Below, piece by piece: positions 6,200 through 37,702 of a stretch of DNA of 64,000 nt. Origin of the DNA: Rhodococcus sp. ABRD24 (GTDB lineage Bacteria; Actinomycetota; Actinomycetes; Mycobacteriales; Mycobacteriaceae). The stretch is taken from NCBI RefSeq assembly GCF_004328705.1, contig NZ_CP035319.1, positions 1,364,001 through 1,428,000 on the forward strand, in the 5' to 3' direction. Numbering within the stretch: the stretch's first letter is position 1; each line of letters begins with the position of its first letter. Made by a program: the position numbers and the translations under genes. The notes under the pieces are model-generated. The model ran no database searches. It saw only the letters and a list, made by a program, of their open reading frames with translations, and was not told the origin of the DNA.

Positions 6200-6208
6200 C
6201 GACGGCGT

Positions 6209-21509: not shown

Positions 21510-21716
21510 CGTCGCCTCCCTCGTGACCAGACCGCCGGGAAGTGCGCCGGCCCTGCGCTCACTGCAACCCCAGTGTCCTCCTCCTGAAGCGTCCATGGTG
21601 GGGCGAGTGCCGGCGCCGGCGGCATGGCGGTCGATGGCAATCAGGGAGGTGGACCAGGTCCCCACGCCGACGAACACCTTTCGCTACGCCAATCGCGCAC
21701 ACCGGTTCACAGTCGA

Positions 21717-22979
21717 TCAGACCGCCGACTGGCCGATCTTCGAGGGCTCGCCGGAGTCTCGCGGGACACGGGAGAGTTTGTCTCCGCGCCGCCAGATGCC
21801 CGCGATCGAGAGAGTAGCGGTGATTTCCTGCGTGGGATCACCGTCGATGAGTAGCAGGTCAGCCTGGAGCCCCGGCGCGATACGACCCCGGTCATGGAGA
21901 CCGAACCGTCGGGCGGGCAAGGACGTCGCCGCGCGCAGCGCCTGCACTGGAGACAGACCCGCTCGAACGAGGAGCTCGAGCTCGCCGTGCATGCTCACTC
22001 CGTGCGCCGTGCCGACCACACCGATGCTTGCCGCATCAGTGCCTGCCAAGATGTCCACTCCGGCTTCGTGCATCCGCCGTGTTGCCTCGATCGCATGGTC
22101 GATGGATCCCGGAGAACCCAGATGCCAGCACTGGCACAGATTCTCTCGCCACGAAGCCGGGATCAGCGGACGGGCCCTGTCGTCGTTGGCGAGGTGAGTC
22201 CCATCGATGTCACTCGCCAGGGAACCAACCGTGCTGAGCGTGGGCGTGATGAAGACTCCAGCATCGAGCGCCTGCGCAATGATCTCGTCCGTGGGTGGTC
22301 GATCGAAGAAGATGTGGACGAGTCCATCCACACCGGCGCGAAGAGCCTGCTCCGCCCCGGTCAATGAAGTGACGTGCGCGACCGCCATCTTCCCGTGGTC
22401 ATGCGCCGCGTTGACGATGGCCCGTGCCACGTCCTCGCTGAGGGTGGGGGAATCGTGCCCGAGCGAAGTACCGTCGTCGATGAGGAGTTTGATGTAATCC
22501 GCGCCCTCCGCCACCCGGGCGCCCACAAACGCGGAGGCGTCCTGGAGGGATGTCACCACCGGATACTGCTCAGCGAAGTAGGTTCCGATCATCATCGACG
22601 GATGTCCACCCAATACGGTGGCGCCGATGGATGCGGACCGCACATCAGCGAGGTCGTTGCGTTCCGCGGCGTCACGCCGCTGCCCGTCCATCCATTCCGG
22701 GCAGGAGAACATGTCGAGTTCCGTTGTCACGCCGAACAACAAGGCGTGCTCCAATGAGGGCGGCTGCGCATGCGTGTGACTGTCGATCAGTCCGGGCAGC
22801 AGAGTCTTGCCCCGCCCGTCGATGACCTCGATCTCGCCACTCGGGTCGAACTGCGTGGTGACCGCCTCGATCAACCCACTCCTGACGTGGACCGTCGCGC
22901 GCTCGACAACCTCCTCTCCGTCGAAGACCCTTGCATCCCTGATTACGAACTCTGCGTGATTCATCGCACTGCCATCCAT
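21717..22979 (-). CDS. Metal-dependent amidohydrolase (imidazolonepropionase/prolidase-like)
   Basis: 420 residues; ATG 22964 is an alternative start. The fold landmarks are LPGLIDSHTHAQP (His68, His70), YIKLLIDDGTS (the bridging Lys region), MAVAHVTSLTGAEQA, and LAGTDAASIG (catalytic Asp), with a final LLLIDGDPTQ strand. This is the amidohydrolase_1 group that includes prolidase- and imidazolonepropionase-like enzymes and aryl-ester or amide hydrolases. The promoter carries a copy of the regulon operator (22991-23024), only 11 bases before the first ATG. The gene therefore probably belongs to the same pathway as the aryl-CoA genes at 24-40 kb. The substrate is unknown. Confidence 0.85.
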   Translation of the reverse strand: MDGSAMNHAEFVIRDARVFDGEEVVERATVHVRSGLIEAVTTQFDPSGEIEVIDGRGKTLLPGLIDSHTHAQPPSLEHALLFGVTTELDMFSCPEWMDGQRRDAAERNDLADVRSASIGATVLGGHPSMMIGTYFAEQYPVVTSLQDASAFVGARVAEGADYIKLLIDDGTSLGHDSPTLSEDVARAIVNAAHDHGKMAVAHVTSLTGAEQALRAGVDGLVHIFFDRPPTDEIIAQALDAGVFITPTLSTVGSLASDIDGTHLANDDRARPLIPASWRENLCQCWHLGSPGSIDHAIEATRRMHEAGVDILAGTDAASIGVVGTAHGVSMHGELELLVRAGLSPVQALRAATSLPARRFGLHDRGRIAPGLQADLLLIDGDPTQEITATLSIAGIWRRGDKLSRVPRDSGEPSKIGQSAV

Positions 22980-22990
22980 GGTCGGAGTAT

Positions 22991-23024
22991 TTACGTTGAT
23001 GTAGGATATTCAACTGGTACGTAA
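22991..23024. promoter_or_regulatory. Regulon operator, copy 1 (amidohydrolase / SDR divergent region)
   Basis: TTACGT (22991-22996) and ACGTAA (23019-23024) flank the core GTAGGATATTCAAC, with the centre between 23007 and 23008. The core and outer blocks align with three other promoter sites in this window (30680, 31259, 37651). Arms match at 11 of 17 positions. Confidence 0.65.
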
Positions 23025-23238
23025 CACAATGTGTCAAGGGCCACACTTGGGGAATCGGGCCCCCGTGGGTCCATTGCCCGTCGCTCCGGCGCCCACACAG
23101 CCGTCGCAGACCTCACCGGTGGAGACACACCGGCGATGCACAACCATCCGAGGTCGCGTTCGACATCTGGGCGGATACCGGAGCCTCCACCCGGAACAAC
23201 CACGTGCCACACCGAACACGAGCAGAAAGCAGGATGCG

Positions 23239-23985
23239 ATGAACGGGAACCAACGAGCCGCAATCGTCACTGGCGGATCCGCAGGGATCGGGCTGGCGAT
23301 TGCCGAGGCACTCGCAGACGAGGGCTACAACCTGACAATCGTCGCGCGAGACCAGGTCAAGCTCGCCGAGGCCGCGACTCACCTACGCAAGCGTGGCGTC
23401 GAGGTCCTGCCGGTGTCCGGAAACCTGGCCCACAGCGCCGACTGCGAGGCCGCAGTGGCCTCGCACGTCGAACGATACGGCCGCACCGACGTCCTGATCA
23501 ACAACGCCGGCCTGGGCCTGAGCGGAAACATTGCCGACATGCCCACGCCGAAGCTCGACCTCCATCTCAATCTGAACCTTCGGTCCGCCTATCTGCTGAT
23601 GCAAAGCTGCATTCCGACATTGCAGGTGGCGGGAGCCGAACACGGTAAGGCATTGATCGTCAACGTGAGCTCGATCTTCGGGAAGCTGCCGCGGGCGGGA
23701 GTGGCCGCCTACTCGATGACCAAAGCGGCGATGATCGCCCTGAGCCAGTCGGCGCACGGCGAACTCAGCCGTCTCGGCATCCAGGTCACCGCCATCTGCC
23801 CGGGGCTGGTCGAGACACCCGGATCCACGTGGATGGAAAAGGACCCTAGTGCCATGCTCCCGCCTTCGGACGTGGCCGAAGCGGTGCGCTTTCTGCTGCG
23901 CACCTCGCCGCGGTGCGCCGTTCCCGAAATCACGCTGACCACTCCCGGGCCCGACGTCCACCATGTCGACCTCCCGTGGACCTGA
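23239..23985 (+). CDS. Short-chain dehydrogenase/reductase
   Basis: 248 residues from ATG 23239; the frame upstream is non-coding leader. It is a classical SDR: TGGSAGIG cofactor motif near the N-terminus, NNAGLGLSG, a catalytic Ser in NVSSIFG and YSMTK for the Tyr/Lys pair. The first loop (VARDQVKL with Arg) suggests NADP(H). It is transcribed divergently from the amidohydrolase with the shared operator between them and is closed by the terminator at 24000-24045. It probably oxidises or reduces a pathway intermediate. Confidence 0.87.
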   Translation: MNGNQRAAIVTGGSAGIGLAIAEALADEGYNLTIVARDQVKLAEAATHLRKRGVEVLPVSGNLAHSADCEAAVASHVERYGRTDVLINNAGLGLSGNIADMPTPKLDLHLNLNLRSAYLLMQSCIPTLQVAGAEHGKALIVNVSSIFGKLPRAGVAAYSMTKAAMIALSQSAHGELSRLGIQVTAICPGLVETPGSTWMEKDPSAMLPPSDVAEAVRFLLRTSPRCAVPEITLTTPGPDVHHVDLPWT

Positions 23986-23999
23986 CGGGCTTTGGCTGC

Positions 24000-24045
24000 T
24001 GCTCTCGCACCGTCACCCCGACTTCGGGGTGACGGTGCGAGAGCA
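24000..24045. terminator. Bidirectional terminator between SDR and thiolase
   Basis: A perfect 22-base inverted repeat (24000-24021, 24024-24045) leaves only CT at the tip, so the true loop is a few bases larger. It lies between two converging genes and can serve both. Confidence 0.85.
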
Positions 24046-24127
24046 GGATCCGCCGGATGAGGCATTCGGACCCGGCGTCTGCCTCATCTCCCGCGCGTAG
24101 AGCAAAAGCCCTGCCGCACGGCCGATT

Positions 24128-25309
24128 TCAGTTGACCTCGAAGAGTCCGGCTGCGCCCATCCCGCCGCCGACGCACATCGAGATCACGACATACCGAGCG
24201 CCTCGGCGTTTACCTTCGATGAGAGCGTGGCCGACCAGGCGGGCGCCGGTCATCCCGTACGGATGACCGATCGAGATTGCGCCGCCGTTGACATTGAATC
24301 GATCGGGGTCGATACCGAGATGGTCGCGGCAGTAGACGGCTTGAGAAGCGAAGGCTTCGTTGAGTTCCCACAGACCGATGTCGTCGACCGTGAGGTTGTG
24401 CTGCCCGAGTAGCTTCGGGATCGCGAAGATCGGCCCGATTCCCATCTCGTCCGGTCCGCACCCTGCCACAGCCATACCGCGGTACACGCCGAGCGGTTCG
24501 AGACCGCGGCGTTCGGCCTCCTTTGCCTCCATCAGGACCGACGCCGAGGCGCCATCCGAGAGCTGGGAGGCGTTGCCGGCGGTCACACTCGACGTGTTCG
24601 TCACCTCGCCGTCGAGAAGGACCGGCCGCAGTGCGGCGAGCCCGGCAGCAGTGGTGGAGGGACGGTTCCCTTCGTCCTTGATCAACTGGACGGGTACGTT
24701 CCCGTCCTCGGTGGTCTTGATGCTGTCGAGGGGAACGATTTCGGCGTCGAAGCGGCCCGCAGCCTGCGCTGCGGCGGTGCGCTGCTGGGACAGCAGTGCG
24801 AACTCGTCCTGCCGGTCCCTGCCGACCTTGTACCGTTCGGCCACGATCTCGGCCGTATGCAGCATCGGCAGATAGGTGCTCGGGAGGTTCTCGACGAGCC
24901 AGGGGTCGGTGGCACGGTACCGGTTCTGGTGTTCGTTCTGGACCAGCGAGATCGACTCGACGCCGCCACCGATCGCGATCTGCATGCCGTCGCCGACGAT
25001 CTGTTTGGCGGCAGTGGCGACAGCCATCAGCCCGGAGGAGCACTGCCGATCTATGGTCATGCCCGGCACAGAAGTGGGGAGCCCGGCACGCAACGCGGCC
25101 TGGCGGGCGATGTTGGTTCCGGTCGAGCCCTCCTGCATGGCGCAACCGAGGACGACGTCCTCGACCTCCTGGCCGCTGATTCCGGCTCGTTGCACGGCGT
25201 GGGCGATCGCGTGTGCGGCGAGCTGCTGGGGCTGGGTGTTGTTGTAGGAGCCTCGATACGCCCTGCCGATCGGCGTGCGTGCGGTCGAGACGATGACTGC
25301 TTCCCTCAT
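24128..25309 (-). CDS. Thiolase (acetyl-CoA acyltransferase)
   Basis: 393 residues from ATG 25309; an in-frame GTG at 25336 is less likely. All thiolase landmarks are present: the acyl-accepting Cys90 in TIDRQCSSG, His349 in [13 protein letters not shown], and Cys379 in [12 protein letters not shown]. It cleaves a 3-ketoacyl-CoA with CoA to release acetyl-CoA, or condenses in reverse. It is the last gene of the long minus-strand operon starting at 30612 and follows the SDR at 25382, so the two may perform the final dehydrogenation and thiolysis of the pathway. Confidence 0.93.
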
Positions 25310-25381
25310 GTGGTGCTCATTTCTGGACGAAGTCACACCGTGATGGTCGGTGTGACGGTTGGTGACGCCGGGCTCGCGTCG

Positions 25382-26293
25382 TCAACGGGCAACTGTGGCG
25401 GCTCGGGTGGCGGAGTCGACGAAGTGCTGAATCTGGGCGGTGGTGCTGTCGGTGCCCGACGGCACGCTCGAGTCGCTGATCTGCGCCCAGTGCCGGGCAA
25501 CGTCGTCGGGGGTTCTGGTATCGGCGGGGAGGAAGACGCCTTGGGCTTCGAGCATGCGGCTGACCGCGAACGTTCCACCGCCGGCGCCGAGGATCGTCTT
25601 GGTCGGCGCGTCCGCGGACACCAGGAACAGTGCGCCGGGGGTGATCGACTCCGGAGTCAGGATTTCGGCGGCCGTGGCGTCGAAGATCGATTCGGTCATG
25701 TGGGTCGTCGCGAGCGGTGCCAGAGCATTGACGTGAATGCCCTTGGATCGGCCCTCGATGGCGAGCACGTTCATCAGCCCGACGAGCGCGGATTTGGCCG
25801 CAGCGTAGTTGGCCTGCCCGAAGTTTCCGTAAATCCCGGAGGCGGAGGTAGTCATCAGGATTCGGCCGTAGTTCTGGGTGATCATGTGCTGCCAAACGGC
25901 CTTGCTGCAGTTCACGGCGCCCATCACATGGACGTCGAGGACTGTGCGGAAGTCGTCGAGGCCGGCGTTACGGAAACTGGCATCGCGCAGGATTCCGGCA
26001 TTGTTGATCAGGATGTCGATCCGGCCCCAAGCGGAGAGAGCGCGGTCGACCATGGCAGTGACCTGCGTGTAGTCGGTGACGTCGGCGCGGTCGGCGATCG
26101 CCGAGCCGCCGCGGGCGGTGATCTCGGCGACGACACGGCCCGCGGGGGTGTCCGAAGTGCCATCGGGGGATCCGCCGATGTCGTTGACAACCACATGGGC
26201 GCCGTGGGCCGCGAGGGCGAGGGCGTGAGCGCGGCCGAGTCCACCGCCGGCCCCGGTAATGATGGCAACCTGACCAGCGAAATCGATTGTCAT
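25382..26293 (-). CDS. Short-chain dehydrogenase, 3-hydroxyacyl-CoA dehydrogenase type
   Basis: 303 residues. Start ATG 26293 overlaps the stop of the MFS gene (ATGA), which rules out the much longer open frame upstream. The features TGAGGGLGRAHALALA, VNDIGGSPDG, NNAGILRD, TTSAS and YAAAKSAL resemble the dehydrogenase domain of HSD17B4/multifunctional enzyme type 2, which oxidises (3R)-hydroxyacyl-CoA with NAD+. The long C-terminus continues past the SDR core. It is coupled to the upstream transporter and precedes the thiolase by 72 bases. Confidence 0.88.
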   Translation of the reverse strand: MTIDFAGQVAIITGAGGGLGRAHALALAAHGAHVVVNDIGGSPDGTSDTPAGRVVAEITARGGSAIADRADVTDYTQVTAMVDRALSAWGRIDILINNAGILRDASFRNAGLDDFRTVLDVHVMGAVNCSKAVWQHMITQNYGRILMTTSASGIYGNFGQANYAAAKSALVGLMNVLAIEGRSKGIHVNALAPLATTHMTESIFDATAAEILTPESITPGALFLVSADAPTKTILGAGGGTFAVSRMLEAQGVFLPADTRTPDDVARHWAQISDSSVPSGTDSTTAQIQHFVDSATRAATVAR

Positions 26294-27624
26294 GAAACAG
26301 CTTTCGTGTCGGCGGGCTGAGTCGCAGGGGTGAGGGTGGCGCTCGTGCTGTCCGTGGCGCTGCGCGGTACCAGCAGGGTCAGCACGGCTCCGACGACGGC
26401 CGGGAGCGCGAAGGCGAACAGCTGCCAGGTGGTGTCGGCGCCGAGTGCAACGAAGAGTCCGCCGTACGTGGGGCCGATGATGGCACCGATCCGCCCGACT
26501 CCCAGCGCCATTCCGAGTCCGGTGGCCCGGCAGGATGCGGGATAATAGGTGCCGATGTAGGTGTTGAGCAGGATTTGGGTGCCCGTGGTGCCGAGCCCGG
26601 CCAGCATCACCAGTAGGTAGATGACCGCAAGTGGTGGGCCGGTCGCTATGGCCAGCAACGACAGTGCGGCGCTGCAGAAGAAGGCCACGGTGACGGGTTT
26701 GATGCCGTACCGGTCGGCGAGCGTGGCACCGATGAGTGCTCCTGCCGCGCCGCCGACGTTCAAGGCGAGCAGGAAGGACAGGGCCGCCCCCAGCGGGTAG
26801 CCGGCAGATTTCATGAGCGCGGGAAGCCAGGTCGCGACGCCGAACAGCACGAGAAGGCAGACCAGGGTCATTGCCCAGAACAGCAATGTCGCGAGGGTGC
26901 GCTCGGTGCCGAAGAGTGCGCGCAGCCCGCGTTCGGGTGCGGCGGTGAGGTCCGGTCCGGCGATCGAGTTGGGGTCGGCGGGGAGCTCGAGGTGATATCG
27001 CTGAGCGATCGCTACGGCAGCGTCGTGCTGGCCCCGAGAGGCGAGATAGGCCGGTGATTCCGGGAGGTACCGGAGCATCACGGGCAGGAAGATGAGAGCC
27101 GGAACCATTCCGGCCAGGAACATCGCCCGGAACCCGTACTCGGGCACGAGCCACAACGAGAGCACCCCGGCGAAGATTCCGCCGATGCTGGTGCCGACGA
27201 ACCCGAGCGCCACCGACCTGGCCCGGGCGCCCGGGGCGGCGAACTCGATCAGCGTCGCTGCCGCGGTCGGCATGAGTACGCCGGCACCGAGACCCACGAC
27301 GACCCGCCCGATTCCGAAGACCGCGGGGTTGGGCGCAATCGCACACAGGCCCATAGCGGCGGAGAACACAAGGACGGCGGCGAGGAGGGTGCGGCGGCGA
27401 CCCCATCGGTCGGCGACTGCCGCGGCGAGCAGAGCACCGGCCAGCATGCCGACGCCGACGAGTGAGCCGAGCATTCCCACGTCGGTTGCGTCCAGATTCC
27501 AGGGGGCGTAACTCAGCAGTGACGGAACCACAGTTCCGTACATCAGAAGGTCGTAGCCTTCGAGGACCAGTGCCATGAGGCAGAGCCCGACGACGGGCGC
27601 TGCGGGTGGGATACGAACAGACAT
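26290..27624 (-). CDS. MFS transporter, aromatic acid:H+ symporter (AAHS) family
   Basis: 444 residues with 12 predicted membrane helices. The N-terminal LEGYDLLMYG corresponds to the conserved DGxD motif of aromatic acid symporters such as PcaK and BenK. The loop ADRWGRRRTLL and the periplasmic-to-cytoplasmic motif RYLPESPAYL are also typical. Start ATG 27624 has GGAG eight bases upstream. A strong hairpin (27647-27689) precedes it inside the operon. It probably imports the aromatic acid that the ligase at 35834 activates. Confidence 0.88.
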   Translation of the reverse strand: MSVRIPPAAPVVGLCLMALVLEGYDLLMYGTVVPSLLSYAPWNLDATDVGMLGSLVGVGMLAGALLAAAVADRWGRRRTLLAAVLVFSAAMGLCAIAPNPAVFGIGRVVVGLGAGVLMPTAAATLIEFAAPGARARSVALGFVGTSIGGIFAGVLSLWLVPEYGFRAMFLAGMVPALIFLPVMLRYLPESPAYLASRGQHDAAVAIAQRYHLELPADPNSIAGPDLTAAPERGLRALFGTERTLATLLFWAMTLVCLLVLFGVATWLPALMKSAGYPLGAALSFLLALNVGGAAGALIGATLADRYGIKPVTVAFFCSAALSLLAIATGPPLAVIYLLVMLAGLGTTGTQILLNTYIGTYYPASCRATGLGMALGVGRIGAIIGPTYGGLFVALGADTTWQLFAFALPAVVGAVLTLLVPRSATDSTSATLTPATQPADTKAVS

Positions 27625-27646
27625 TGCTGTCTCCGCTCGGAGAGGA

Positions 27647-27689
27647 GTGGCCCCGCCTGGTCCGCAGGATGCGGGCCAGGCGGGGCCAC
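27647..27689 (-). terminator. Strong hairpin inside the operon (terminator or attenuator)
   Basis: GTGGCCCCGCCTGG (27647-27660) pairs perfectly with CCAGGCGGGGCCAC (27676-27689), and CCGC/GCGG extend the stem inward. It lies between the stop of the hydrolase (27707) and the start of the transporter (27624), so it may limit read-through into transporter, SDR and thiolase. Confidence 0.75.
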
Positions 27690-27706
27690 GGGGGACTGGG
27701 GAATGT

Positions 27707-28942
27707 CTAGGCGAACCGAGTCGCCAGCCAGGCACCGATGTCGGCGGCGGCCAGGCTGGCGCCGGTGGGGGCGCCGTCGTGGATCGGGCCGCCGAAGTGG
27801 GTGCCGGCGACGCGGACGTGGGTTTTGTCCACTGATCCGAGGGCATCGACCATGGTTGTGGCGTCCTCGGGGAAGCAGGCCTGGTCGCCGGTGAGTTCGA
27901 CGAACAGGGACGGTGCGGTGAGAGCAGGGGCACAGCGAAGGAAGTCGGCGTTGCTGCTCAGTCCAGACCAGGTGGACAGCCAGGCGTCCGGGGTGGCGAA
28001 GCGTCCGAAGCCGACGAGTCCGTAATTGGTGAGGTCGGGTCTACGACCCAACAGTGATCCGTAGGGGCGCTCGTTCGGGCTCAGGGACAGGTCGGTGAAC
28101 CGCAGGTCCGCGTCGGTGCGGTACACGGTCAACACGCGGGGTGCGAGCGAGGCACGGTGATCCGCCGGGTCGGAAGTGCTCTTGTAGCGGCGGCGCGCCT
28201 CGGCAGCTTCAGCGACTCGTTCGCGGGCAATCGCATCGAGGCGGGCAATGCGCTCACGCTGCGCCGCCCGGTACCGAGTGACGAACTCGGGTGCGTACGA
28301 GGAGCTGTGCGGCGGTTCGGCGAATCCGTTGGCGGGATCGAACGGGTTCAACCCCGGATCAACGGACAACGGGTCGGTCTCGTCAGTGACCGACGGGTCG
28401 ATCAACCGCAGCAACAACGCCCCCTGGCCGGGATGTGGGGCCATGAACACTGCCGCATCGGGCAGCGGCATCTGCGCGCCTGCCAGGTCGATGGGCCGGC
28501 CGGCGGGGGTGCGGGCCAGCCGCTCCCCCGCCGGTAGTCCGGCCTGCTGGTGGTAGAACGCGAACAGGGTGCCGCCACCGGAGTGCCCGAGGGTGACGAC
28601 GTGCTCGAAGCCCTTCTCCCGCAGGAATACCTGTCCCGCCGCGGCATCGAGGAGAGCCTGCTCGTGCACCAAGGCGATGTCGTTGTTGACCGAGCGGGTG
28701 CCCTGCGTCCACACCGCGAATCCCCGCGCGAGCAACTCTGGCACGAGCACGTGATGAGTGAGGTCCTGCCGGGGGTGCATCAACGTGACCACGGTGCGGG
28801 CTCCGGGCACGACCCGCAGGACACCGCTGACCTTCGCGCCGTCCGCCGTGCTGAGCTCGTGCATGGAGATCACGGTGCTATCGGGCGCCTGGGCGGCATC
28901 GATGTAGCGGCCGGCGCCGAGCCGCTGATGCTGCTCGGTCAC
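27707..28942 (-). CDS. Alpha/beta hydrolase
   Basis: 411 residues. Start GTG 28942 overlaps the stop of the 81-aa gene (GTGA), so translation is coupled. The nucleophile elbow is LGHSGGG, preceded by a region resembling an oxyanion loop (TLMHPRQD); the late ELTGDQACFPED holds a likely Asp and GTHFGGP a likely His. It is larger than the usual 270-300 residues because of an insertion with an arginine-rich helix (RERIARLDAIARERVAEAAE), which may form a lid. It is probably an esterase or C-C hydrolase of the pathway. The exact substrate is unknown. Confidence 0.8.
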   Translation of the reverse strand: MTEQHQRLGAGRYIDAAQAPDSTVISMHELSTADGAKVSGVLRVVPGARTVVTLMHPRQDLTHHVLVPELLARGFAVWTQGTRSVNNDIALVHEQALLDAAAGQVFLREKGFEHVVTLGHSGGGTLFAFYHQQAGLPAGERLARTPAGRPIDLAGAQMPLPDAAVFMAPHPGQGALLLRLIDPSVTDETDPLSVDPGLNPFDPANGFAEPPHSSSYAPEFVTRYRAAQRERIARLDAIARERVAEAAEARRRYKSTSDPADHRASLAPRVLTVYRTDADLRFTDLSLSPNERPYGSLLGRRPDLTNYGLVGFGRFATPDAWLSTWSGLSSNADFLRCAPALTAPSLFVELTGDQACFPEDATTMVDALGSVDKTHVRVAGTHFGGPIHDGAPTGASLAAADIGAWLATRFA

Positions 28943-29184
28943 CGCGGCTCGATTCGCATGGCGTCCTTGTCCCACTGGGTAATTCGGGACAGGTGCAGTC
29001 CGGCGACGCTGCTGTACCACACCGCGTGGCGGGCTTCGGTCGCCCGTCGGTCGATCACGATCGGCGCGTCGGAGACAATTCGGAAGTAGGGTCCGACACG
29101 ATCGATCGTCACCGCCGGGTCTTGTCCCGCGACTGCGGCGATCGGAGCGTTCTCCGGAACATCGAGGACGAACATCGTGGTCAT
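28939..29184 (-). CDS. Small conserved-context protein of unknown function
   Basis: 81 residues. Both ends overlap neighbours: its ATG 29184 overlaps the VOC stop (ATGA) and its stop overlaps the hydrolase GTG. This coupling strongly supports a real gene. The protein is soluble, with one Trp-rich central strand (HAVWYSSVAGLHLSRI) and no Cys. I do not recognise a family. Given its size and place it could be a subunit or chaperone of the hydrolase or VOC protein, or a small binding protein. Confidence 0.7.
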   Translation of the reverse strand: MTTMFVLDVPENAPIAAVAGQDPAVTIDRVGPYFRIVSDAPIVIDRRATEARHAVWYSSVAGLHLSRITQWDKDAMRIEPR

Positions 29185-29828
29185 CGGTTGCTCACCGTCT
29201 CTTTCTCGTCCTGCTTCTGCTGCCAGTCCTCGGCTCGCTCGATGATCAGTTCGGCCTTACGGGCGAGTAGTGCGGCCATGCTCGGTTCGGGGCCGGACAC
29301 GATGTCGACGAGGGCATCGATGGTGATGTTGGCATCGAGATCCTCCTGCAGGGTCACCGGACGGAGGGCGCGGGTGATCTCGATCATGTAGCCGTTCGGG
29401 TCATGGGTGTAGATCGACTCGATCGTCTCGTGCTGGATCTGCATCTCGACCGGCCACTCGCTGTCATCGAGGCGACGCCGATACTCCAACAGGTCTTCTT
29501 CGCTGTCGACGTGGATGGCAAGGTGACGCGAACGGATGAAGAAGATCGGCACGTCCTCGGCGAAGCGGGAGTACGAATCGCCCTGCGGCCCACCCTCGAA
29601 CGGTTCGAGTCCGAAATAGTAGAAGAACGCGAGCCGGTCGTCGTTTCCGATGTCGAAGAAGAAGTGGATGAAGTCCGGGTGCTTCTCCGGGCCCCACCCG
29701 GCGGCGCAGATCGAATGCACCACCGGGAAGCCGAGCACGTCACGATAGAACTTGACGGTACCGGCGGGATCGAAGGTCGGATAGGCGACGTGGTCGACGC
29801 CTTTGGCAATGTGGTGCAGTTCGGACAT
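29181..29828 (-). CDS. VOC-superfamily protein (extradiol dioxygenase / glyoxalase-like)
   Basis: 215 residues from ATG 29828 with GGGAG upstream. It has two beta-alpha-beta-beta-beta units: GVDHVAYPTFD gives the first metal His, SRHLAIHVDS the second, and DPNGYMIEITR the Glu. This His-His-Glu set is the metal triad of vicinal-oxygen-chelate enzymes. The extra C-terminal helices (SMAALLARKAELIIERAEDW) are not part of the core. Within an aromatic operon it may be a ring-cleavage dioxygenase; other VOC activities (isomerase, lyase) are possible. It lies 25 bases after the maleate isomerase gene. Confidence 0.82.
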   Translation of the reverse strand: MSELHHIAKGVDHVAYPTFDPAGTVKFYRDVLGFPVVHSICAAGWGPEKHPDFIHFFFDIGNDDRLAFFYYFGLEPFEGGPQGDSYSRFAEDVPIFFIRSRHLAIHVDSEEDLLEYRRRLDDSEWPVEMQIQHETIESIYTHDPNGYMIEITRALRPVTLQEDLDANITIDALVDIVSGPEPSMAALLARKAELIIERAEDWQQKQDEKETVSNR

Positions 29829-29853
29829 GATGAACTCTCCCAAGGGGTTCGGG

Positions 29854-30612
29854 CTACTGGCGGGCAGCGGCTGGCGCGTCGGCGCGCAGCAGGCTTCCGG
29901 CACCGGGAAGGTTGACGGCGAGGTCGAGTCCGCGCAGCAGGCTGTAGGCGCCGGCGGTAGCGGCCGAGAGCACGGGCAGTCCGAACTCGTCCTCGGCCGC
30001 CTGGACGAGGTCGAGCGAGGGCATCTGCACGCAGGCGGAGATGACCATGGCATCGGCTCCGGCACGGTCGAGCGATCGTGCCGCCTCCATGACCCGGTCA
30101 CCGGGGATGCAGCCGACCTCGGCGTTGTCGGCGACCTCGAGGGCGCGCCAGTCCGCAACCTGGATACCTTCGGCCTCGATGTAGGCGACGACCTGCTCGG
30201 CGAGCGGACGCATGTAGGGGGTGACCAGGACAATCCGCTTCGCGTCGATCGCGTGGAGTGCTTCGACGAGGGCGCCCGCGCTGGAGCGGACCACCGCGTC
30301 GGAACCTCCGGTCGCCAGCTGTTCGGCAACCAGGCCCTCCACGCGCTGGTGTTCCCCGGGACCCACGGACATCAGGGCGACCAGGCACGCATAGAGGATG
30401 CCGTCTACACCCGCGTCACCGAGTTCGAGGATGCACCGCTCGCGTTGAGCGTTCATCGCCCGCAACTGTTCCGGCGACACGGCCTGCATCCGCATCCGGC
30501 TCGAGTGGAACGAGAACCGAGCGTCCGGATGCCGGCTGAGCAGGGCCGGCATTTCCGTCTCGACCGTCACATTCGAACTCGGCACGACGAGCCCGATGCG
30601 GTGAATGCCCAT
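29854..30612 (-). CDS. Maleate cis-trans isomerase (Asp/Glu racemase superfamily)
   Basis: 252 residues, matching maleate isomerases such as MaiA/NicE nearly end to end. Landmarks are LVVPSSNVTVETEMPALLS, FHSSRMRM, YACLVALMS with the first catalytic Cys, VTPYMRPL, the block VADWRALEVADN, and SACVQMPSLD with the second Cys. The enzyme converts maleate to fumarate without a cofactor. It is the first gene of the minus-strand operon and its promoter holds the regulon operator at 30680-30713. Its presence implies that the pathway releases maleate, as gentisate- or nicotinate-type routes can. Confidence 0.9.
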   Translation of the reverse strand: MGIHRIGLVVPSSNVTVETEMPALLSRHPDARFSFHSSRMRMQAVSPEQLRAMNAQRERCILELGDAGVDGILYACLVALMSVGPGEHQRVEGLVAEQLATGGSDAVVRSSAGALVEALHAIDAKRIVLVTPYMRPLAEQVVAYIEAEGIQVADWRALEVADNAEVGCIPGDRVMEAARSLDRAGADAMVISACVQMPSLDLVQAAEDEFGLPVLSAATAGAYSLLRGLDLAVNLPGAGSLLRADAPAAARQ

Positions 30613-30679
30613 GAGGTTGCCCTTCTGATCTGGATGCCCGGGCGGTGACCGAGAGGGAGCCGCCCCGACTGAAGTATAT

Positions 30680-30713
30680 TTACGTTCACGACGAGTATTC
30701 GACGCATATGATG
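30680..30713. promoter_or_regulatory. Regulon operator, copy 2 (maleate isomerase / thioesterase divergent promoter)
   Basis: TTACGT (30680-30685) and the core CGAGTATTCGACG lie around a centre between 30696 and 30697. On the minus strand the sequence GTCGAATACTCG is identical to the core of copy 3. It lies 68 bases before the minus-strand operon start and about 105 bases before the plus-strand thioesterase. Confidence 0.65.
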
Positions 30714-30817
30714 ATTCGTCAAGCCCAATCGGACACCCGGTCGCGATTTTCGATACCGGGGCACCGTGCACCCACCGTTGGCCGACAGCATTCGAGCGCA
30801 CGAGGAAGGACGATCCG

Positions 30818-31246
30818 ATGACCCACATGAGCGAGCACATCCGGGTGGAATGGGTGGACGTGGACGGCGGCGGTGCAGCCCATCACTCGATGGCCGCAAT
30901 TTGGGCCGAACAGGTGGAGCACGCCCTGCTCAGAACGCTGCATTTGGCGCCCGATCGCTTTCCGCGACGACGGATCGAGGTCGACTTCCACCACCCCCTT
31001 CGATTCGGGGACCGCTTCACGCTCGACCTACGCATCGCGCAGGTCGGCACCACCTCGGTGGTCTACCTCTGGTCTGCGCACATTCGCGGCGAGCCCTGCT
31101 TCTCCGGCCGCACAATCGCCGTTTTCGTCGACGACACCGGCAGTCCACAGCCGGTCCCGGACGCGATTCGCGCGAAGATCACCCCTCAATTACCTCAATC
31201 GGTCGACCGAAGCACGCACCTTGCCCGTGTCGATCCTCACATGTGA
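30818..31246 (+). CDS. Hotdog-fold acyl-CoA thioesterase (4-hydroxybenzoyl-CoA thioesterase type)
   Basis: 142 residues. AAGGA eight bases upstream favours ATG 30818 (ATG 30827 is possible). The N-terminal block IRVEWVDVDGGGAAHHSMAA matches the active-site loop of YbgC/4-hydroxybenzoyl-CoA thioesterases (RVRWxDxDxxGHVxH), in which the Asp acts in catalysis. RRRIEVDFHHPLRFGD continues the hotdog sheet. It probably frees a hydroxylated aryl acid from its CoA ester after the flavin hydroxylation step. It is first in the plus-strand series with HyuA, HyuB and the ligase. Confidence 0.85.
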   Translation: MTHMSEHIRVEWVDVDGGGAAHHSMAAIWAEQVEHALLRTLHLAPDRFPRRRIEVDFHHPLRFGDRFTLDLRIAQVGTTSVVYLWSAHIRGEPCFSGRTIAVFVDDTGSPQPVPDAIRAKITPQLPQSVDRSTHLARVDPHM

Positions 31247-31258
31247 CACTTGACATGC

Positions 31259-31292
31259 CGTCAATCACGTCGAATACTCGACATTGACGTAA
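31259..31292. promoter_or_regulatory. Regulon operator, copy 3 (upstream of hyuA-like gene)
   Basis: The core GTCGAATACTCGAC is a near-perfect palindrome centred between 31275 and 31276, and ACGTAA ends the right arm (31287-31292). The outer block is missing on the left. The site directly abuts the AAGGAGG ribosome site of the next gene, so binding here could block transcription entering HyuAB from upstream. Confidence 0.6.
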
Positions 31293-31306
31293 GGAGGTGT
31301 TCGAGG

Positions 31307-33457
31307 ATGACCTCACACCTCGTCGCATCCCCCCGACGAAGGAGCACAGCGGCAATGGCATATGTAATCGGAGTGGACGTCGGTGGCACGTTCACCGACG
31401 CGGTGTTGGATGACAATGCCGGCACTGTTCTCGCCGCCAAGGCTCCCTCGACCCCGCCCGACTACTCGCGCGGCGTCATCGACGTTCTCGAGGTGCTCGC
31501 CGAACAACTGGGCTGCCCCATCGAGGAGATGCTGGCAAACACGCACCACATCGCACACGGCACCACGTCGTCACTCAATGCCCTCGTCATGGGCAATGTG
31601 CCCCCGGTCGGCTTCCTGACCACCAAGGGCCACCGCGACTCGATCTACATCATGAACGTCGAGGGCCGATACCTGGGAAGTTCACCCGAGCAACTCCAGA
31701 ATGTCATGGGGCAGAGCAAGTCTCGCGGCCTCGTCCCGAAAAAGCACGCACTCGAGGTGACCGAACGACTAGACCGTGACGGCAATGTCGTCGTCGCCCT
31801 CGACGAGGAGTCTGCCCGCGAGTCCATCCGCGCGCTCCTCGCCGAGAACGTATCAGGGATCGCGGTCTCGCTGTTGTGGTCGTTCCGCAATCCCACGCAC
31901 GAACAGCGCATTCGCGAGCTCGTCCACGAGATCGACCCGACGATGTTCGTCTCGCTGTCGAGCGAGGTGAGCCCCCGTATCCGCGAGTTCGCCCGCAACG
32001 CGACCACCATCATGAGCACCCAGATCGGCCCCGGGCTCCGGGACTACCTCGGCGAACTGGAATCGAAGCTGCGCGAGCGAAAACTCGCCGGACCGCTGCT
32101 GGTGATGCAGAGCAACGGCGGCGCCGTCGCAGCCGCGGAGGCGCCCAAGAACGCGATCAGCACGGTCGGTTCGGTGCTGACCGGCGGCGTGGTCGGGGCG
32201 GTCTCCCTCGGTAGACAACTCGACCATCGCAACATCATCGCCACCGATGCGGGCGGGACCACCTTCCTCGTCGGACTCGTCGTCGACGGGGAACCCGTCC
32301 GCTCCTCCAGCACGATCATCAATCACCATCCGATCAACGTGCCCACCCTCGAGGTCCATGCCATCGGCTCCGGTGGCGGCGCCATCGCCTGGATCGACGC
32401 CGGCGGCAACCTGCAAATCGGCCCCCACAGCGCCCAGGCCGTCCCCGGGCCCGCCTGCTACGGCCAGGGCGGCACCGAGCCCACCAATGCCGACGCCAAT
32501 CTGGTGCTCGGGATTCTGCCCGAGCGGGGCCTGCTCGGCGGTCGCAAGCGGCTCGACAAGAACCTCGCGCGGGAGGCGATCCGCACCCGAATCGCCGAAC
32601 CCCTGGGCCTGTCGATCGAGGAGGCGGCAGCAGCCATCTATGCGGTCCAGAATGCCCAGACCGGTGACCTGTTGCGCAAGACCGTCGTCGAGGCCGGACA
32701 CGACCCGCGCGACTTCGTCCTGTACGCCTTCGGCGGGTCCGGCCCCGCCCACTGCGCGGCGTACGCCGCCGAAGTCGGCGTCCGTGACGTCATCGTCCCG
32801 CTCGGCCAGGTTGCCTCCGCGTTCTCGGCGTACGGCCTTGCCTCGTCCAACATCGTTCTCGCCGCGGAACTGTCCGATCCGGCTGCTATGCCTCTCGACC
32901 CCACCCGCGCCGAGCGGAACTTCGCCCAGCTGGAAACCCAGGTACTCGAGCAGCTGAACCGGCAGGGTTTGACGTTCACCGGCGTCGAGATCGAGCGCGA
33001 GATCGACATGCGCTACACCATGCAGCTCGCCGAGGTCGCCACCCCGATCCCGGCCGGGAACCTCGATGCAGCGGGAATCGCGCGGGCCTCGGACCTGTTC
33101 GAGCAGCGCTACGCCGAACTCTACGGCGAGGACAGTGGATTCCGGGAGGCCGGAATCCAGGCGATCACCTACCGGGTGCGGGCCACCGGCATCCTGCCGT
33201 TCTCCCCCACGCTGCCGGACCTGAAGTCCGCGGACTCGGCCGATGCCTCCGCCGCGCGGGTCGGCACCCGCAAGGTCTGCCTCGACGGCAAGCTCGGCTA
33301 CGTCGACACCGATGTCTACGACTACAGCAAGCTGCTCGCCGGACATGTCCTGCCGGGCCCGGCGATCGTCGAGGTCCCCACGACCACCGTCGTCGTCCCC
33401 CACGGCACCACCGGCACCGTCGACCGCCTCGGCAACCTCAACATCGTCGCCCACTAG
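31307..33457 (+). CDS. Hydantoinase A / acetone carboxylase beta-like subunit
   Basis: 716 residues from ATG 31307, which has AAGGAGG nine bases upstream; many relatives start at the position of ATG 31355 (700 residues). The N-terminus IGVDVGGTFTD is the ATP-binding phosphate-1 motif of the HyuA/oxoprolinase family. The family couples ATP hydrolysis to opening of a cyclic amide (hydantoin, 5-oxoproline) or to carboxylation of a ketone (acetone, acetophenone). Conserved blocks include AHGTTSSLNAL, TDAGGTTFLVGLV, VHAIGSGGGAIAW and FGGSGPAHCAAYA. It is paired with the HyuB-like gene 11 bases downstream. Confidence 0.88.
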   Translation: MTSHLVASPRRRSTAAMAYVIGVDVGGTFTDAVLDDNAGTVLAAKAPSTPPDYSRGVIDVLEVLAEQLGCPIEEMLANTHHIAHGTTSSLNALVMGNVPPVGFLTTKGHRDSIYIMNVEGRYLGSSPEQLQNVMGQSKSRGLVPKKHALEVTERLDRDGNVVVALDEESARESIRALLAENVSGIAVSLLWSFRNPTHEQRIRELVHEIDPTMFVSLSSEVSPRIREFARNATTIMSTQIGPGLRDYLGELESKLRERKLAGPLLVMQSNGGAVAAAEAPKNAISTVGSVLTGGVVGAVSLGRQLDHRNIIATDAGGTTFLVGLVVDGEPVRSSSTIINHHPINVPTLEVHAIGSGGGAIAWIDAGGNLQIGPHSAQAVPGPACYGQGGTEPTNADANLVLGILPERGLLGGRKRLDKNLAREAIRTRIAEPLGLSIEEAAAAIYAVQNAQTGDLLRKTVVEAGHDPRDFVLYAFGGSGPAHCAAYAAEVGVRDVIVPLGQVASAFSAYGLASSNIVLAAELSDPAAMPLDPTRAERNFAQLETQVLEQLNRQGLTFTGVEIEREIDMRYTMQLAEVATPIPAGNLDAAGIARASDLFEQRYAELYGEDSGFREAGIQAITYRVRATGILPFSPTLPDLKSADSADASAARVGTRKVCLDGKLGYVDTDVYDYSKLLAGHVLPGPAIVEVPTTTVVVPHGTTGTVDRLGNLNIVAH

Positions 33458-33468
33458 GAGCACCAGCC

Positions 33469-35790
33469 ATGACCGCACAGATTCCCGGCTCCGAAGTCTT
33501 CTCGAGCCGACCCGTCGACCCGGACGCACTCTCGCGATCACTTCCCCCGACGCTGGAAGTCCACACCGTCACGCAAGAGCAGATCGACAGCCTCGACCCG
33601 TTGACCTACGAGGTCATCCGGCACCGGCTGTGGTCCGTCACCGACGAGATGGGCGAAGCTCTCAAGCGGATGTCCGGCTCTCCCATCGTCACCGATGCCA
33701 ACGACTTCGACTTCGCCATCAGTGACGAAATCGGCCAGGAAGTTCAGGTCGGCCTGTACAACACCATGCTCGTCGGTGCCGTCGATCTGGCCATCTACTG
33801 GACGCTGCAGCACCGCTCGACGAGCCCCGGCATCACCGAGGGCGACATGTTCTTGTGCAACGACCCGTGGGTGGGTGGTGGTCTGCACCAGAGCGACGTG
33901 ATGGTTTATCAGCCGGTCTTCCACGAGGGCAAGCTGTTCGCCTGGACCAGCGCCATCTGCCATGAACCCGATCTGGGCGGATCCGGACTCGGCTCGTTCG
34001 ACCCCTCGGCCCAGGACGTGTTCTCCGAGTCGCTGCCCACCCCACCGATCAAGGTGGTCCGCGACTACGAGCTGCAGCGAGACGTCTCCGACGCCTGGGT
34101 GCGGCGCTCGCGGGTGCCGATGCTCGTCGGACTGGACCTGCGCGCAAAGATCGGCGCAAACACCGTCGGCCGGAATCGGCTTCTAGCGGTGATCGAACAG
34201 TACGGCGCGGACACCGTGAAGGCCGTGATGAAGCGGATGATGGCCGACGCTGAAGGGCGCCTGCGCGGCAAGCTCGCAGCACTGCCGGACGGGACCTGGA
34301 AGGCCACCGGCTACCAGGACCAGTCGCAGATCGGCGACCGCGGAATCCACAAGATCACCGTGGCGATGACCAAGTCCGACAATCACCTCACATTCGACTT
34401 CACCGGCACCGACCCGCAGACCGGCGTCATCAACTGCACCTACGCGGGCATGCGAGGCGGTGTCATGCTCGCCCTGCTGCCGATCCTCGCTGGCGACATC
34501 CCCTGGTCCGCGGGCGGGCTGATGCGCTGCTTCGACCTGGTCGCAGAAGAGGGCACCATCAACAACGCGACGTTCCCTGCGGCGGTGAGCCGTGGCCCGA
34601 TCGGACCGGCCTGGCTCACCGGAACCCTGATTGCCGAATGCCTGTCCCAGATGCTCGACCGCTCCGTCGATCTCGGCAGCGTGCAGGCGGCCTGCTGCGG
34701 CACATGGGACACCGCCGTGATCGCCGGAGTCGATGAACGTCCCGAACAATCGGTGCCGTTCCTCAACATCATGATGGAGCCGATGGCCGGTGGCTACGGG
34801 GCGCGTCCCGCCGCCGACGGCATGGACACCGGCGGCCTCTTCTGTGTCCCGATGGGCCGCATCCCCGACACCGAGATGACCGAGTTCCTGTACCCACTGC
34901 TCACGTTGTGGCGCCGCGAGGAACCCGACTCCGGCGGACCCGGTCGCCAGCGTGGTGGTGTCAGTGCCTCGCTCGCCATCACGCCCTACGGCACCAGCCT
35001 GCCAATGGGCTTGGTGCTGGCATCGGCCGGCAAGGCCGTCGCCCAGAACAACGGTCTCGCCGGCGGATACCCGGGCAACACGGGTGTGGAGGTCCTCGCC
35101 CGCGGCACCGACCTCATCGAACAGTTCGCGGCGGGCCGCATTCCCGGCTCGCTCGACGACCTCGCCGGCGGTCGTGAACTCGGAGCCTGCTACGCCGAGA
35201 GCTATGTCGCACCCGGTGAGGTGCTGTACATGCACTGGCAGGGCGGCGGCGGCTACGGTGATCCGCTGCTGCGGGACCCGTCCGCGGTGGCGGCCGACTT
35301 CCGCGAAGGCAAGGTCACCGAAAACGGTGCCGAGACCGTGTACGGCGTCGTCCTCGTCGATGGCGACGTCGACGCGGGACGGACCGCACGCCGGCGCGAG
35401 GAGATGCGCACCGAGCGACGCGAGCGCTCCGGTAGCACACCCTCCGATGCCCCCACACTCGAGTTGGCCGGTGCTCGTCGACTCGACGACAACCTGGTCG
35501 AGGTCACGATCGGCGACACCCGCGCGATCGGCTGCGCGCAGTGCGGACGTCTCCTGGGCGACGACAAGAACAACACCACCCTCGAGCTCGCCCGATTCGA
35601 GGGCCCGTCGTCGACCGCCGGCCCACAGGTCACATCCGACCCCGCCGAGTACGTCGACGCCCCGGTGGTCTTCCGGCAGCTGTGCTGCCCCGGCTGCTGG
35701 ACCGCCATCTACTCGGGCATCGTGCCGGCTGATCACCCCGACCATGCCCTCGACCTGGCGCGGCTTCTGCCCGCAGTGGCGCAGCGGTGA
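33469..35790 (+). CDS. Hydantoinase B / acetone carboxylase alpha-like subunit with fused Cys-rich C-terminal domain
   Basis: 773 residues. The main body (about 40-640) is HyuB-type, with LTYEVIRHRLW near the start, GDMFLCNDPWVGGGLHQSD (the metal and substrate region) and GGGGYGDPLLRDP at the end of the core. Unusually, about 130 further residues follow. They hold CAQCG (near 690) and CCPGC (near 748), a four-to-five-Cys metal-binding pattern like that of the separate small gamma subunit of acetone carboxylase. The fusion favours a carboxylase-type complex over a simple hydantoinase (inference). It is coupled to HyuA upstream and 43 bases from the ligase gene. Confidence 0.85.
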   Translation: MTAQIPGSEVFSSRPVDPDALSRSLPPTLEVHTVTQEQIDSLDPLTYEVIRHRLWSVTDEMGEALKRMSGSPIVTDANDFDFAISDEIGQEVQVGLYNTMLVGAVDLAIYWTLQHRSTSPGITEGDMFLCNDPWVGGGLHQSDVMVYQPVFHEGKLFAWTSAICHEPDLGGSGLGSFDPSAQDVFSESLPTPPIKVVRDYELQRDVSDAWVRRSRVPMLVGLDLRAKIGANTVGRNRLLAVIEQYGADTVKAVMKRMMADAEGRLRGKLAALPDGTWKATGYQDQSQIGDRGIHKITVAMTKSDNHLTFDFTGTDPQTGVINCTYAGMRGGVMLALLPILAGDIPWSAGGLMRCFDLVAEEGTINNATFPAAVSRGPIGPAWLTGTLIAECLSQMLDRSVDLGSVQAACCGTWDTAVIAGVDERPEQSVPFLNIMMEPMAGGYGARPAADGMDTGGLFCVPMGRIPDTEMTEFLYPLLTLWRREEPDSGGPGRQRGGVSASLAITPYGTSLPMGLVLASAGKAVAQNNGLAGGYPGNTGVEVLARGTDLIEQFAAGRIPGSLDDLAGGRELGACYAESYVAPGEVLYMHWQGGGGYGDPLLRDPSAVAADFREGKVTENGAETVYGVVLVDGDVDAGRTARRREEMRTERRERSGSTPSDAPTLELAGARRLDDNLVEVTIGDTRAIGCAQCGRLLGDDKNNTTLELARFEGPSSTAGPQVTSDPAEYVDAPVVFRQLCCPGCWTAIYSGIVPADHPDHALDLARLLPAVAQR

Positions 35791-35833
35791 TGTTCCAGAC
35801 AACCATGATCGTTACTGATAAAGGAGAACAACG

Positions 35834-37531
35834 GTGACATTCTCGGACTGGGGTGGACGCCTCGTTCCGTTCCCCGAGGATCGTGCTGACCGCTACCGCG
35901 ACAGCGGTGAGTGGAGCGCCGATCCCACCGGGCGGCGGCTACACCAGATCGCCACCCGGTTCCCGGACCGACCGGCGGTGATCACCGCCCGAGGGCAGAT
36001 GAGCTTCGCAGAACTCGATCGCCGCACGGACCAGATCGCGGCCGGGCTGATCCGACTCGGGCTCCAGCGACTCGATCCCGTCATCTTCCAGCTCACCAAC
36101 CGCCTGGAGACAGTCCTCGCGTGGTACGGCTGCATCAAGGCCGGGCTGGTCCCGGTGGCGACACTGGCCGCGCACCGCATGCACGAGATCGGGCACATCA
36201 GTCGCAAGGTAGGCGCCGTCGCGCACCTCGTCGAGGCGAATCTGCCCACCTTCGATCTCGTCGAGTTCGCCCGCGAACACGCCGACGGACACCCCACCGT
36301 GCGGCACATCATCAGCGTCGGCGATGCGGACAGCAACGACCGGGCCGACGTGACTCGACTCGAAGATCTCGGGCTCGAGATCGATCCCCACACCGCGCAT
36401 GACATCGTCGAGCAGATCGCGGCACACACCGATGCCTGCGACGTGGCTGCGTTCCAGCTCTCCGGTGGCACCACCGGAGTTCCCAAGGTCATCCCGCGCA
36501 TCCACGCCGAATACTGGAACAATGCGCTGCTGTATGCACAACGGCTCGGATGGGACGAGAACAGTCGCGTCGCCCATCTGATCCCGATCATCCACAACGC
36601 CGGCATCTCGTGCGGGCTCCACGCCGCGCACTCGGTCGGCGCCTGCCTGGTCCTGGCCACCGCTGATGCCCCCACCGCCTTCCAGCTCATGGCGCGGACG
36701 AAGGCGACCGAGGTTCTCATCGGGCACGGCCACTACCAGGCAGTGCTGACTCCGGACTTCGACCAGGCTGAACCCTGGCTCAAACGCGTCATCCTCTCCG
36801 GCGCCAAGGTTCCGCACGAGCTGTTCGAGCGCGTCGACGACGGAACCGGACGCTGGGCCGGTCAGTTGTTCGGCATGGCCGAGGGATTGTTCACGGTGAC
36901 CCCACTCGACGCCCCCGCACAAGCCCGAATGACAACTGTGGGTACCGCCATCTCGGCCGATGACGAGATACGCATCCTCGAACCCGGCACCGAGAACGAG
37001 CTCGGCGACGGGGAGGTCGGAGAACTGTGCTGCCGAGGCCCGTACACGCTCCCCGGCTATTTCGACGCCCCGGACCACAACCGGGACGCCTTCACCTCCG
37101 ACGGCTTCTACCGCACCGGGGACCTCGGCGCGATGACGGTGATCGACGGCGCACGTTATCTGTCGATCGAGGGTCGGATCAAGGATCTCATCAACCGGGG
37201 TGGCGAGAAGATCAACGCCGAGGAGGTCGAGCTGCTTCTGCTCGAGCATCCCGATATCGCGAACGCGGCGGTGGTCGCCATGCCCGACCCCCGGCTCGGA
37301 GAGAAGACTTGCGCATACGTGGTGTCGATCAACGGAGAAGCTGTGCCCATGCGCGACATTCAGGAGCACTTGTCGCGGCTCGGAGTCGCCAAGTTCAAGT
37401 GGCCCGAACGGCTCGAGTGGGTGACGACCTTGCCACACACGAACGTGAACAAGATCGACAAGAAACGACTGCGCGCCGAGATCGCGGCGAAGGTGGCCAA
37501 CGAGGCCGACTCACGCCGCGTGGACGCATAG
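35834..37531 (+). CDS. Aryl acid-CoA ligase / adenylating enzyme (EntE/salicylyl-CoA synthetase-like)
   Basis: 565 residues. The start is GTG 35834 with AAGGAG seven bases upstream. ANL-superfamily motifs are LSGGTTGVPKVIPR (P-loop), FGMAEGLFT (A5, in the style of DHB-AMP ligases), YRTGDLGAM (A7), IEGRIKDLINRGGEKI (A8) and NKIDKK (A10, catalytic Lys). The HNAGISCGLH segment corresponds to the aryl-binding HNxxLxxPG region of 2,3-dihydroxybenzoate/salicylate adenylating enzymes. It probably activates salicylate or a similar aromatic acid to its CoA ester for the hydroxylase at 37703. It ends the transcript before the hairpin at 37559. Confidence 0.88.
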   Translation: MTFSDWGGRLVPFPEDRADRYRDSGEWSADPTGRRLHQIATRFPDRPAVITARGQMSFAELDRRTDQIAAGLIRLGLQRLDPVIFQLTNRLETVLAWYGCIKAGLVPVATLAAHRMHEIGHISRKVGAVAHLVEANLPTFDLVEFAREHADGHPTVRHIISVGDADSNDRADVTRLEDLGLEIDPHTAHDIVEQIAAHTDACDVAAFQLSGGTTGVPKVIPRIHAEYWNNALLYAQRLGWDENSRVAHLIPIIHNAGISCGLHAAHSVGACLVLATADAPTAFQLMARTKATEVLIGHGHYQAVLTPDFDQAEPWLKRVILSGAKVPHELFERVDDGTGRWAGQLFGMAEGLFTVTPLDAPAQARMTTVGTAISADDEIRILEPGTENELGDGEVGELCCRGPYTLPGYFDAPDHNRDAFTSDGFYRTGDLGAMTVIDGARYLSIEGRIKDLINRGGEKINAEEVELLLLEHPDIANAAVVAMPDPRLGEKTCAYVVSINGEAVPMRDIQEHLSRLGVAKFKWPERLEWVTTLPHTNVNKIDKKRLRAEIAAKVANEADSRRVDA

Positions 37532-37558
37532 ATCGGTAGTTCTACCGCACCTCAATAC

Positions 37559-37591
37559 CTTCGGGGCATGCCTGACCGGCATGCCCCGAAG
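37559..37591 (+). terminator. Intrinsic terminator after ligase
   Basis: A perfect 14-base inverted repeat, CTTCGGGGCATGCC (37559-37572) and GGCATGCCCCGAAG (37578-37591), with a 5-base loop, begins 27 bases after the ligase stop. Confidence 0.85.
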
Positions 37592-37650
37592 TCCTTGAAC
37601 GCAGCAGCCGATCTTCCGTCCCCCTCACGGAGACAACCGAGTTGACCTTT

Positions 37651-37684
37651 CGACGTATGCGTAGAATAATCTACGTATACGTCA
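37651..37684. promoter_or_regulatory. Regulon operator, copy 4 (best conserved)
   Basis: The arms match at 14 of 17 positions around a centre between 37667 and 37668; GACGTATGCGTAGA and TCTACGTATACGTC differ by one base. It lies 18 bases before the flavoprotein start and is the clearest of the four copies. Confidence 0.75.
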
Positions 37685-37702
37685 CAGAGAGTGGAGTTCG
37701 TC

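Follow-up and report, generated by a model that had tools for sequence, protein, structure and literature searches.

The operator and its probable regulator

A 64,000-nucleotide stretch of the Rhodococcus sp. ABRD24 chromosome (NZ_CP035319.1, positions 1,364,001 to 1,428,000; hereafter the window, whose coordinates are used throughout) carries a catabolic gene cluster with four similar promoter sites, named S1 to S4 and each taken as a 36-bp element. Judged from sequence, these sites are, with a probability of about nine in ten, copies of a single operator recognised by the TetR-family protein encoded at 39348, which would repress all four promoters. The four sites are far from chance. Read across loci of soil actinobacteria, they are conserved regulatory elements at promoters of a single catabolic cluster, and the 39348 protein is very probably the regulator that binds them.

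22990..23025, no strand: S1, between the amidohydrolase (-) and SDR (+) genes; second-matrix score 26.7
30679..30714, no strand: S2, promoter of the maleate isomerase operon (-); score 45.4; kept in orthologous loci
31258..31293, no strand: S3, promoter of HyuA-HyuB-ligase (+); score 38.6; kept in orthologous loci
37650..37685, no strand: S4, promoter of hydroxylase-TetR (+); score 39.7; present in the opacus-group relatives L003-L007 and in L054
39348..40133, + strand: TetR-family regulator, proposed binder; recognition helix TRPALYHYV

The comparison set consists of 71 loci (L003-L073) that encode relatives of the cluster hydroxylase, collected by a scan for shared short peptide words that is not exhaustive. 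A first-pass annotation of the window had proposed one operator, several promoters and one TetR protein. This proposal gains support from sites in 62 of the 71 loci, from a linked TetR gene in 66 of them, including clusters with other gene orders, and from covariation between the recognition helix and the half-sites. The details given for the sites are also reproduced: centres at 23007/23008, 30696/30697, 31275/31276 and 37667/37668, a core GTMGRATAHTC common to all four in matching orientation, a TKACGT block 12-17 bases from the centre on at least one side of each copy, and 14 of 17 arm matches in the copy at 37667 that precedes the hydroxylase gene. The gene labels hold as well. A thioesterase at 30818, between S2 and S3, occurs in fewer than 3 of the 71 loci and is not a conserved cluster member. 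The regulon, given as 15 kb, is corrected to about 18 kb (21717-40133).

Two matrices measure how rare the sites are. The four-site matrix was built from S1-S4 of the window and used with a threshold above 16. Across the 71 loci it finds 135 non-overlapping sites. The promoter sequence of the HyuA, maleate-isomerase and hydroxylase genes, 37 kb in all, contains 117 of them and the remaining 1.39 Mb contains 18, so that the promoter sequence is about 240 times denser in sites. The second matrix rests on 44 distinct promoter sites having a -35 box, with the window and six close relatives excluded; these were initially picked by the four-site matrix at orthologous promoters, so some circularity is left. 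It was applied to the window and to a 400-kb genome sample only (about 9% of the genome), with 80 random windows (5.12 Mb, first-order Markov) as the control. In the window it ranks S2, S4, S3 and S1 first to fourth (45.4, 39.7, 38.6 and 26.7). The fifth match (5.9) is S4 read 20 bp shifted, and the next unrelated one scores 0.9. The maximum is 18.2 in the random windows and 8.6 in the genome sample; random sites of similar score, a possibility raised by the first-pass annotation, thus do not appear in the 400 kb sampled. Extrapolated to one genome, the sample tail leads to an expectation of about 0.004-0.02 matches that score like S2-S4, and of 0.29 that score like S1.

Other searches are less informative. 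A 14-bp core with at most two mismatches matches the window 10 times, and S1-S4 on both strands account for 8 of these matches. In 100 shuffles the mean is 1.43 and the highest count 5; this search was dropped as proof because its pattern derives from the sites themselves and is circular. Two fully specified consensus patterns have no match in the genome of the strain, which is uninformative since they miss the window's own sites too. A further search recovered only S1 and S4 and, being blind to S2 and S3, sets no bound on the regulon.

Operator architecture and promoter register

The operator spans 36 bp and comprises four alternately inverted half-sites 10 bp apart, with the consensus T-Y-K-W-C-R, which pair as two palindromes whose centres lie 20 bp apart. 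Across 79 distinct places, 63 have TTGAC in the expected 10-base -35 stretch, a count due in part to selection because the -35 box helped to define the oriented set. An AATANT -10 element accompanies all 63; it was not a selection criterion, but the matrix does give weight to its central letters. These 63 places reduce to 60 distinct oriented sites of the form TTGACA, a mostly 17-bp spacer and AATA(C/A/G)T. The 17-bp spacer occurs in 49 of the 70 places having any nearby TTGAC. Letters are near-invariant among the 60 oriented sites at C -14 (60/60), G -7 (60), C +6 (60/60) and G +13 (59/60), and thereby mark the four alternately inverted half-sites.

S2, S3 and S4 each lie over a TTGACN-17-AATANT promoter and take in its -10 hexamer together with most of its spacer. 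A separate promoter scan, for which 1.8 matches are expected in the region, gives 5, among them the promoters at S2 (-), S3 and S4 (+). A second match at S2 (30685-30712, 16-bp spacer, 9/12) faces the thioesterase gene.

30694..30722, - strand: promoter-like TTGACG-17-AATACT over S2; 9/12 matches; register common in relatives; faces maleate isomerase
31250..31278, + strand: promoter-like TTGACA-17-AATACT over S3; 10/12 matches
37642..37670, + strand: promoter-like TTGACC-17-AATAAT over S4; 10/12 matches

Such an operator is probably bound by two TetR dimers, the simplest reading of its four half-sites. Pairing is strongest in the middle unit, with 5.6 of 8 pairs, followed by the outer units (4.2 and 3.6) and the background (2.2). 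A single simple dimer site was rejected even though the middle palindrome is the strongest, since that palindrome shares bases with the -10 box and does not account for the outer half-sites.

The TetR protein and covariation of its helix with the operator

Domain matches on the longer open reading frame (ORF) 39198-40133 place the regulator in the TetR family, with TetR_N (PF00440, E 9.6e-15) and TetR_C_24 (PF17932, E 3.5e-22) both above cut-off. Its nearest paralogue in the genome is 29% identical. Among the recognition helices of 67 proteins, the window's included, 56 are of the Pro type, ten carry Gln and one carries Ser. This residue tracks the operator: all nine site-bearing Gln loci carry a TGC half-site, against 0 of 53 Pro or Ser loci (window included), and by half-site the count is 14 of 60 against 0 of 492. 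On the TetR tree the Gln label requires two changes, and 0% of 200 bootstrap trees manage with one. The tenth Gln locus, L053, has no matrix site. In a search allowing G at position 4, its top site (30 versus 28 for the next) lies in the SDR/hydroxylase promoter and has two TGC half-sites, although this search is partly circular.

The held-out set began as 20 further stretches, two of them duplicates of known loci, and 18 were used. All 17 that have both a TetR gene and a site agree with the rule: 15 Pro loci and one Ser locus lack TGC, and one Gln locus has it in both sites. The 18th, L159, is a paralogous Gordonia cluster in which the matrix finds no site above 12. This second cluster (Gordonia lacunae by inference, 4719-13125) contains the amidohydrolase, and HyuAB was not detected in it. 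Its TetR helix reads NRGSLYYYV, and by eye its promoters carry TCAGC-form half-sites at the same spacing.

Conservation across loci

Of the 62 loci with sites above 16, 59 have them at the start of HyuA, maleate isomerase or the hydroxylase. Nine loci have none above that score: L018, L033, L053, L064, L065, L067 and the distant proteobacterial L071-L073. In L018 and L033 the HyuA promoter lies outside the stretches examined. Where gene order is altered (Amycolatopsis, Pseudonocardia, Nocardioides, Kribbella), the sites travel with their promoters, with lower scores in Nocardioides and Kribbella. Several Rhodococcus relatives have an extra, weaker operator-like site (17-24) around the TetR start (L022, L023, L027, L047 and L069 near 11547-11553; L055 near 11541), which suggests separate autoregulation of TetR in them; L150-L153 have similar extra sites.

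The block 21717-30612 is syntenic in a genome inferred to be R. opacus, and the remainder of the cluster matches L003. No counterpart of the cluster hydroxylase turned up in the 13 same-genus genomes examined, and the nearest relatives of the enzyme belong to opacus-group Rhodococcus, which suggests that the cluster may have been acquired horizontally together with its regulator.

Weighing the alternatives

Several observations weigh against one TetR protein acting at all four sites. Besides the partly selected -35 count, 16 of the 79 sites lack a -35 box altogether, and at S1 a TTGACA box stands upstream on the - strand, kept in the close amidohydrolase orthologue loci L075 and L076, but not at the 17-bp distance, which leaves S1 without the register of the others. 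The covariation was noticed post hoc, held-out loci excepted. Those held-out loci are relatives of loci already used, and their sole Gln member, whose helix is of the first Gln type (RQAVYHYV), probably does not represent a separate origin. With TGC in 14 of 60 half-sites, the helix residue does not set every half-site in Gln loci; two Gln-locus sites (L056 14019 and L028 3630) have no TGC, and 6 of 113 Pro-type sites also satisfy a relaxed rule that asks for GC at positions 4-5 in an outer half-site. Five TetR-bearing loci (L018, L033, L053, L064 and L067) have no site above 16. Conversely, L036 has a site and no TetR gene within 10 kb, and its closest TetR proteins (51% and 44%) are encoded elsewhere in its genome.

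The L036 case would fit an operator that belongs to another regulator encoded elsewhere, the TetR gene being linked to the cluster for other reasons. This is very unlikely, because the covariation from two origins would be left without a ready explanation, and because clustering of ORFs from 68 loci, which yields 14 groups present in at least 8 loci, brought no recognised regulator besides this TetR. That clustering is rough: one example sequence per group was inspected, by recognition rather than by a domain screen, and TetR sits within the mixed largest group (54 TetR members). Even less credible is a merely shared promoter (TTGACA-17-AATACT) with no operator at all. The hexamers do overlap the conserved element in a mostly constant register, yet the invariant letters at -14, +6 and +13 extend beyond them, and these positions are not known as sigma-70 promoter requirements. 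The base at half-site position 4 also tracks the TetR helix.

Doubt is greater for S1, the weakest copy, which may be a chance or decaying site that leaves the amidohydrolase/SDR pair outside the regulon. Its score, the 0.29 such matches expected per genome and the lack of a promoter in register all allow for this, as does the rarity of the amidohydrolase, found in 5 of 301 genomes of the family, its own included; the distant orthologues L077 and L078 lack an equivalent site. The same promoter nevertheless carries sites in L075 (22.4), L076 (20.7) and Mycolicibacter L056 (19.9), and the pair is syntenic with the cluster in the genome inferred to be R. opacus. In L056 and Gordonia L159, moreover, the amidohydrolase orthologue lies within the cluster and HyuAB was not found in the stretch examined, which suggests that the amidohydrolase and HyuAB may substitute for each other. 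A spurious S1 is judged unlikely.

Genes of the cluster

21717..22979, - strand: amidohydrolase
23239..23985, + strand: SDR dehydrogenase 1
24128..25336, - strand: thiolase
25382..26293, - strand: SDR dehydrogenase 2
26290..27624, - strand: MFS aromatic-acid transporter; TIGR00895 E 1.1e-79 on a longer ORF, below curated cut-off; MFS_1
27707..28942, - strand: alpha/beta-hydrolase-like protein; GHSGGG motif by eye; no Pfam match above cut-off; in 64/71 loci; start is one of several
28939..29184, - strand: 81-aa conserved small protein; in 64/71 loci; no Pfam match above cut-off
29181..29828, - strand: VOC-family protein, possible ring-cleaving dioxygenase; Glyoxalase PF00903 E 1.1e-14 on the longer ORF 29181-30329
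29854..30612, - strand: maleate isomerase; ATG at 30612
31307..33457, + strand: HyuA-type hydantoinase/oxoprolinase subunit; domain matches on ORF 31250-33457; start 31307 or 31355
33469..35790, + strand: HyuB-type subunit; domain matches
35834..37531, + strand: AMP-forming acid-coenzyme A (CoA) ligase, similar to 2,3-dihydroxybenzoate (2,3-DHB)-AMP ligase; domain matches
37691..39310, + strand: FAD monooxygenase of the salicylyl-CoA 5-hydroxylase / VioD kind; in-frame ATG also at about 37703

The hydroxylase matches PRK08255 (E 8e-98, below the curated cut-off), FAD_binding_3 and VioD (PDB 3c4a, E 7.3e-42). Among the 120 of 969 matches that are listed, most protein names are 'FAD-dependent monooxygenase' and some are 'anthraniloyl-CoA monooxygenase', which does not settle the pathway. 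The maleate isomerase matches PDB entries 2xec (E 8.3e-119) and 2xed (E 2e-117), both named 'putative maleate isomerase', and the genes of its operon all lie on the - strand with ends that overlap or are close. The genes are compatible with a route from an acid through its CoA ester, hydroxylation and ring cleavage to maleate and fumarate. A literature search at listing level matched no paper to the cluster and named no pathway; a plasmid search returned 6 records, all below 60% identity, and did not settle the pathway. Adjoining the cluster, 18237-21677 (-) encodes a protein kinase / NB-ARC / TPR / LuxR fusion protein.

Proposed mechanism

Direct observation covers the identity of the sites, their rarity within the sequence examined, their conservation, the promoter register, the gene linkage and the covariation of helix and operator. 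Binding and repression by TetR, its two-dimer stoichiometry, the structure of the operons and the nature of inducer and substrate are inferred. Two TetR dimers, with centres 20 bp apart, would occupy each 36-bp operator. As the operator overlaps the -10 hexamer and spacer at S2, S3 and S4, the bound repressor would block RNA polymerase there. The S2 promoter would drive a seven-gene maleate isomerase operon from 30612 to 24128, encoding the isomerase, the VOC protein, the 81-aa protein, the alpha/beta-hydrolase-like protein, the MFS transporter, an SDR and the thiolase. The S3 promoter would drive HyuA-HyuB-CoA ligase, and the S1 region the amidohydrolase/SDR pair. The S4 promoter would drive the hydroxylase and TetR genes, so TetR would be autoregulated. 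The inducer that releases the repressor may be an intermediate of the pathway, the likeliest candidate being an aryl-CoA formed by the ligase of the cluster itself.

Relation to known systems and significance

TetR-family repressors of CoA-dependent catabolism include PaaR and KstR2. The 39348 protein resembles them in its TetR_N and TetR_C_24 domains and in an operator lying over the promoter of a CoA-ligase pathway, and solved KstR2 structures are among its distant sequence matches (E about 1e-11). Those regulators use short palindromes, from which the operator here differs both in sequence and in its layout of four half-sites. QacR, of which two dimers reportedly bind one operator cooperatively, offers a parallel, as the long operator here would be best explained by two dimers. 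The dimer centres would lie 20 bp apart, whereas those of QacR are much closer, and QacR does not appear by name among the 52 solved sequences that the 39348 protein matches.

We take the Pro/Gln position of the helix, aligned by eye, to correspond to P39 of TetR. According to PMC6570905, a P39K change in TetR abolishes recognition of the normal operator. Position-specific correlation between transcription factors and their sites is a subject of studies on the GntR and MerR families (PMC4494728, PMC5045206). The present argument relies on the same covariation of recognition residues and operator bases, and differs in concerning the TetR family and a repeated Pro-to-Gln change. A tentative extension, given somewhat less than even odds, holds that this helix switch has two origins, both accompanied by one and the same A/T-to-G change in the half-site, and forms a readable piece of a TetR recognition code. 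Under it the regulon would also control an aerobic, CoA-dependent route not described before, which takes an aromatic or N-heteroaromatic acid to maleate and fumarate.

Taken as a whole, the cluster appears as a well-supported TetR-controlled catabolic regulon with an unusually informative operator. For a catabolic cluster that occurs in many actinobacterial genera, the analysis provides a predicted regulator and an operator described in detail, and it supplies a ready test for a TetR residue-to-base rule. By tying the amidohydrolase/SDR pair to the pathway, it would also narrow the search for the substrate.

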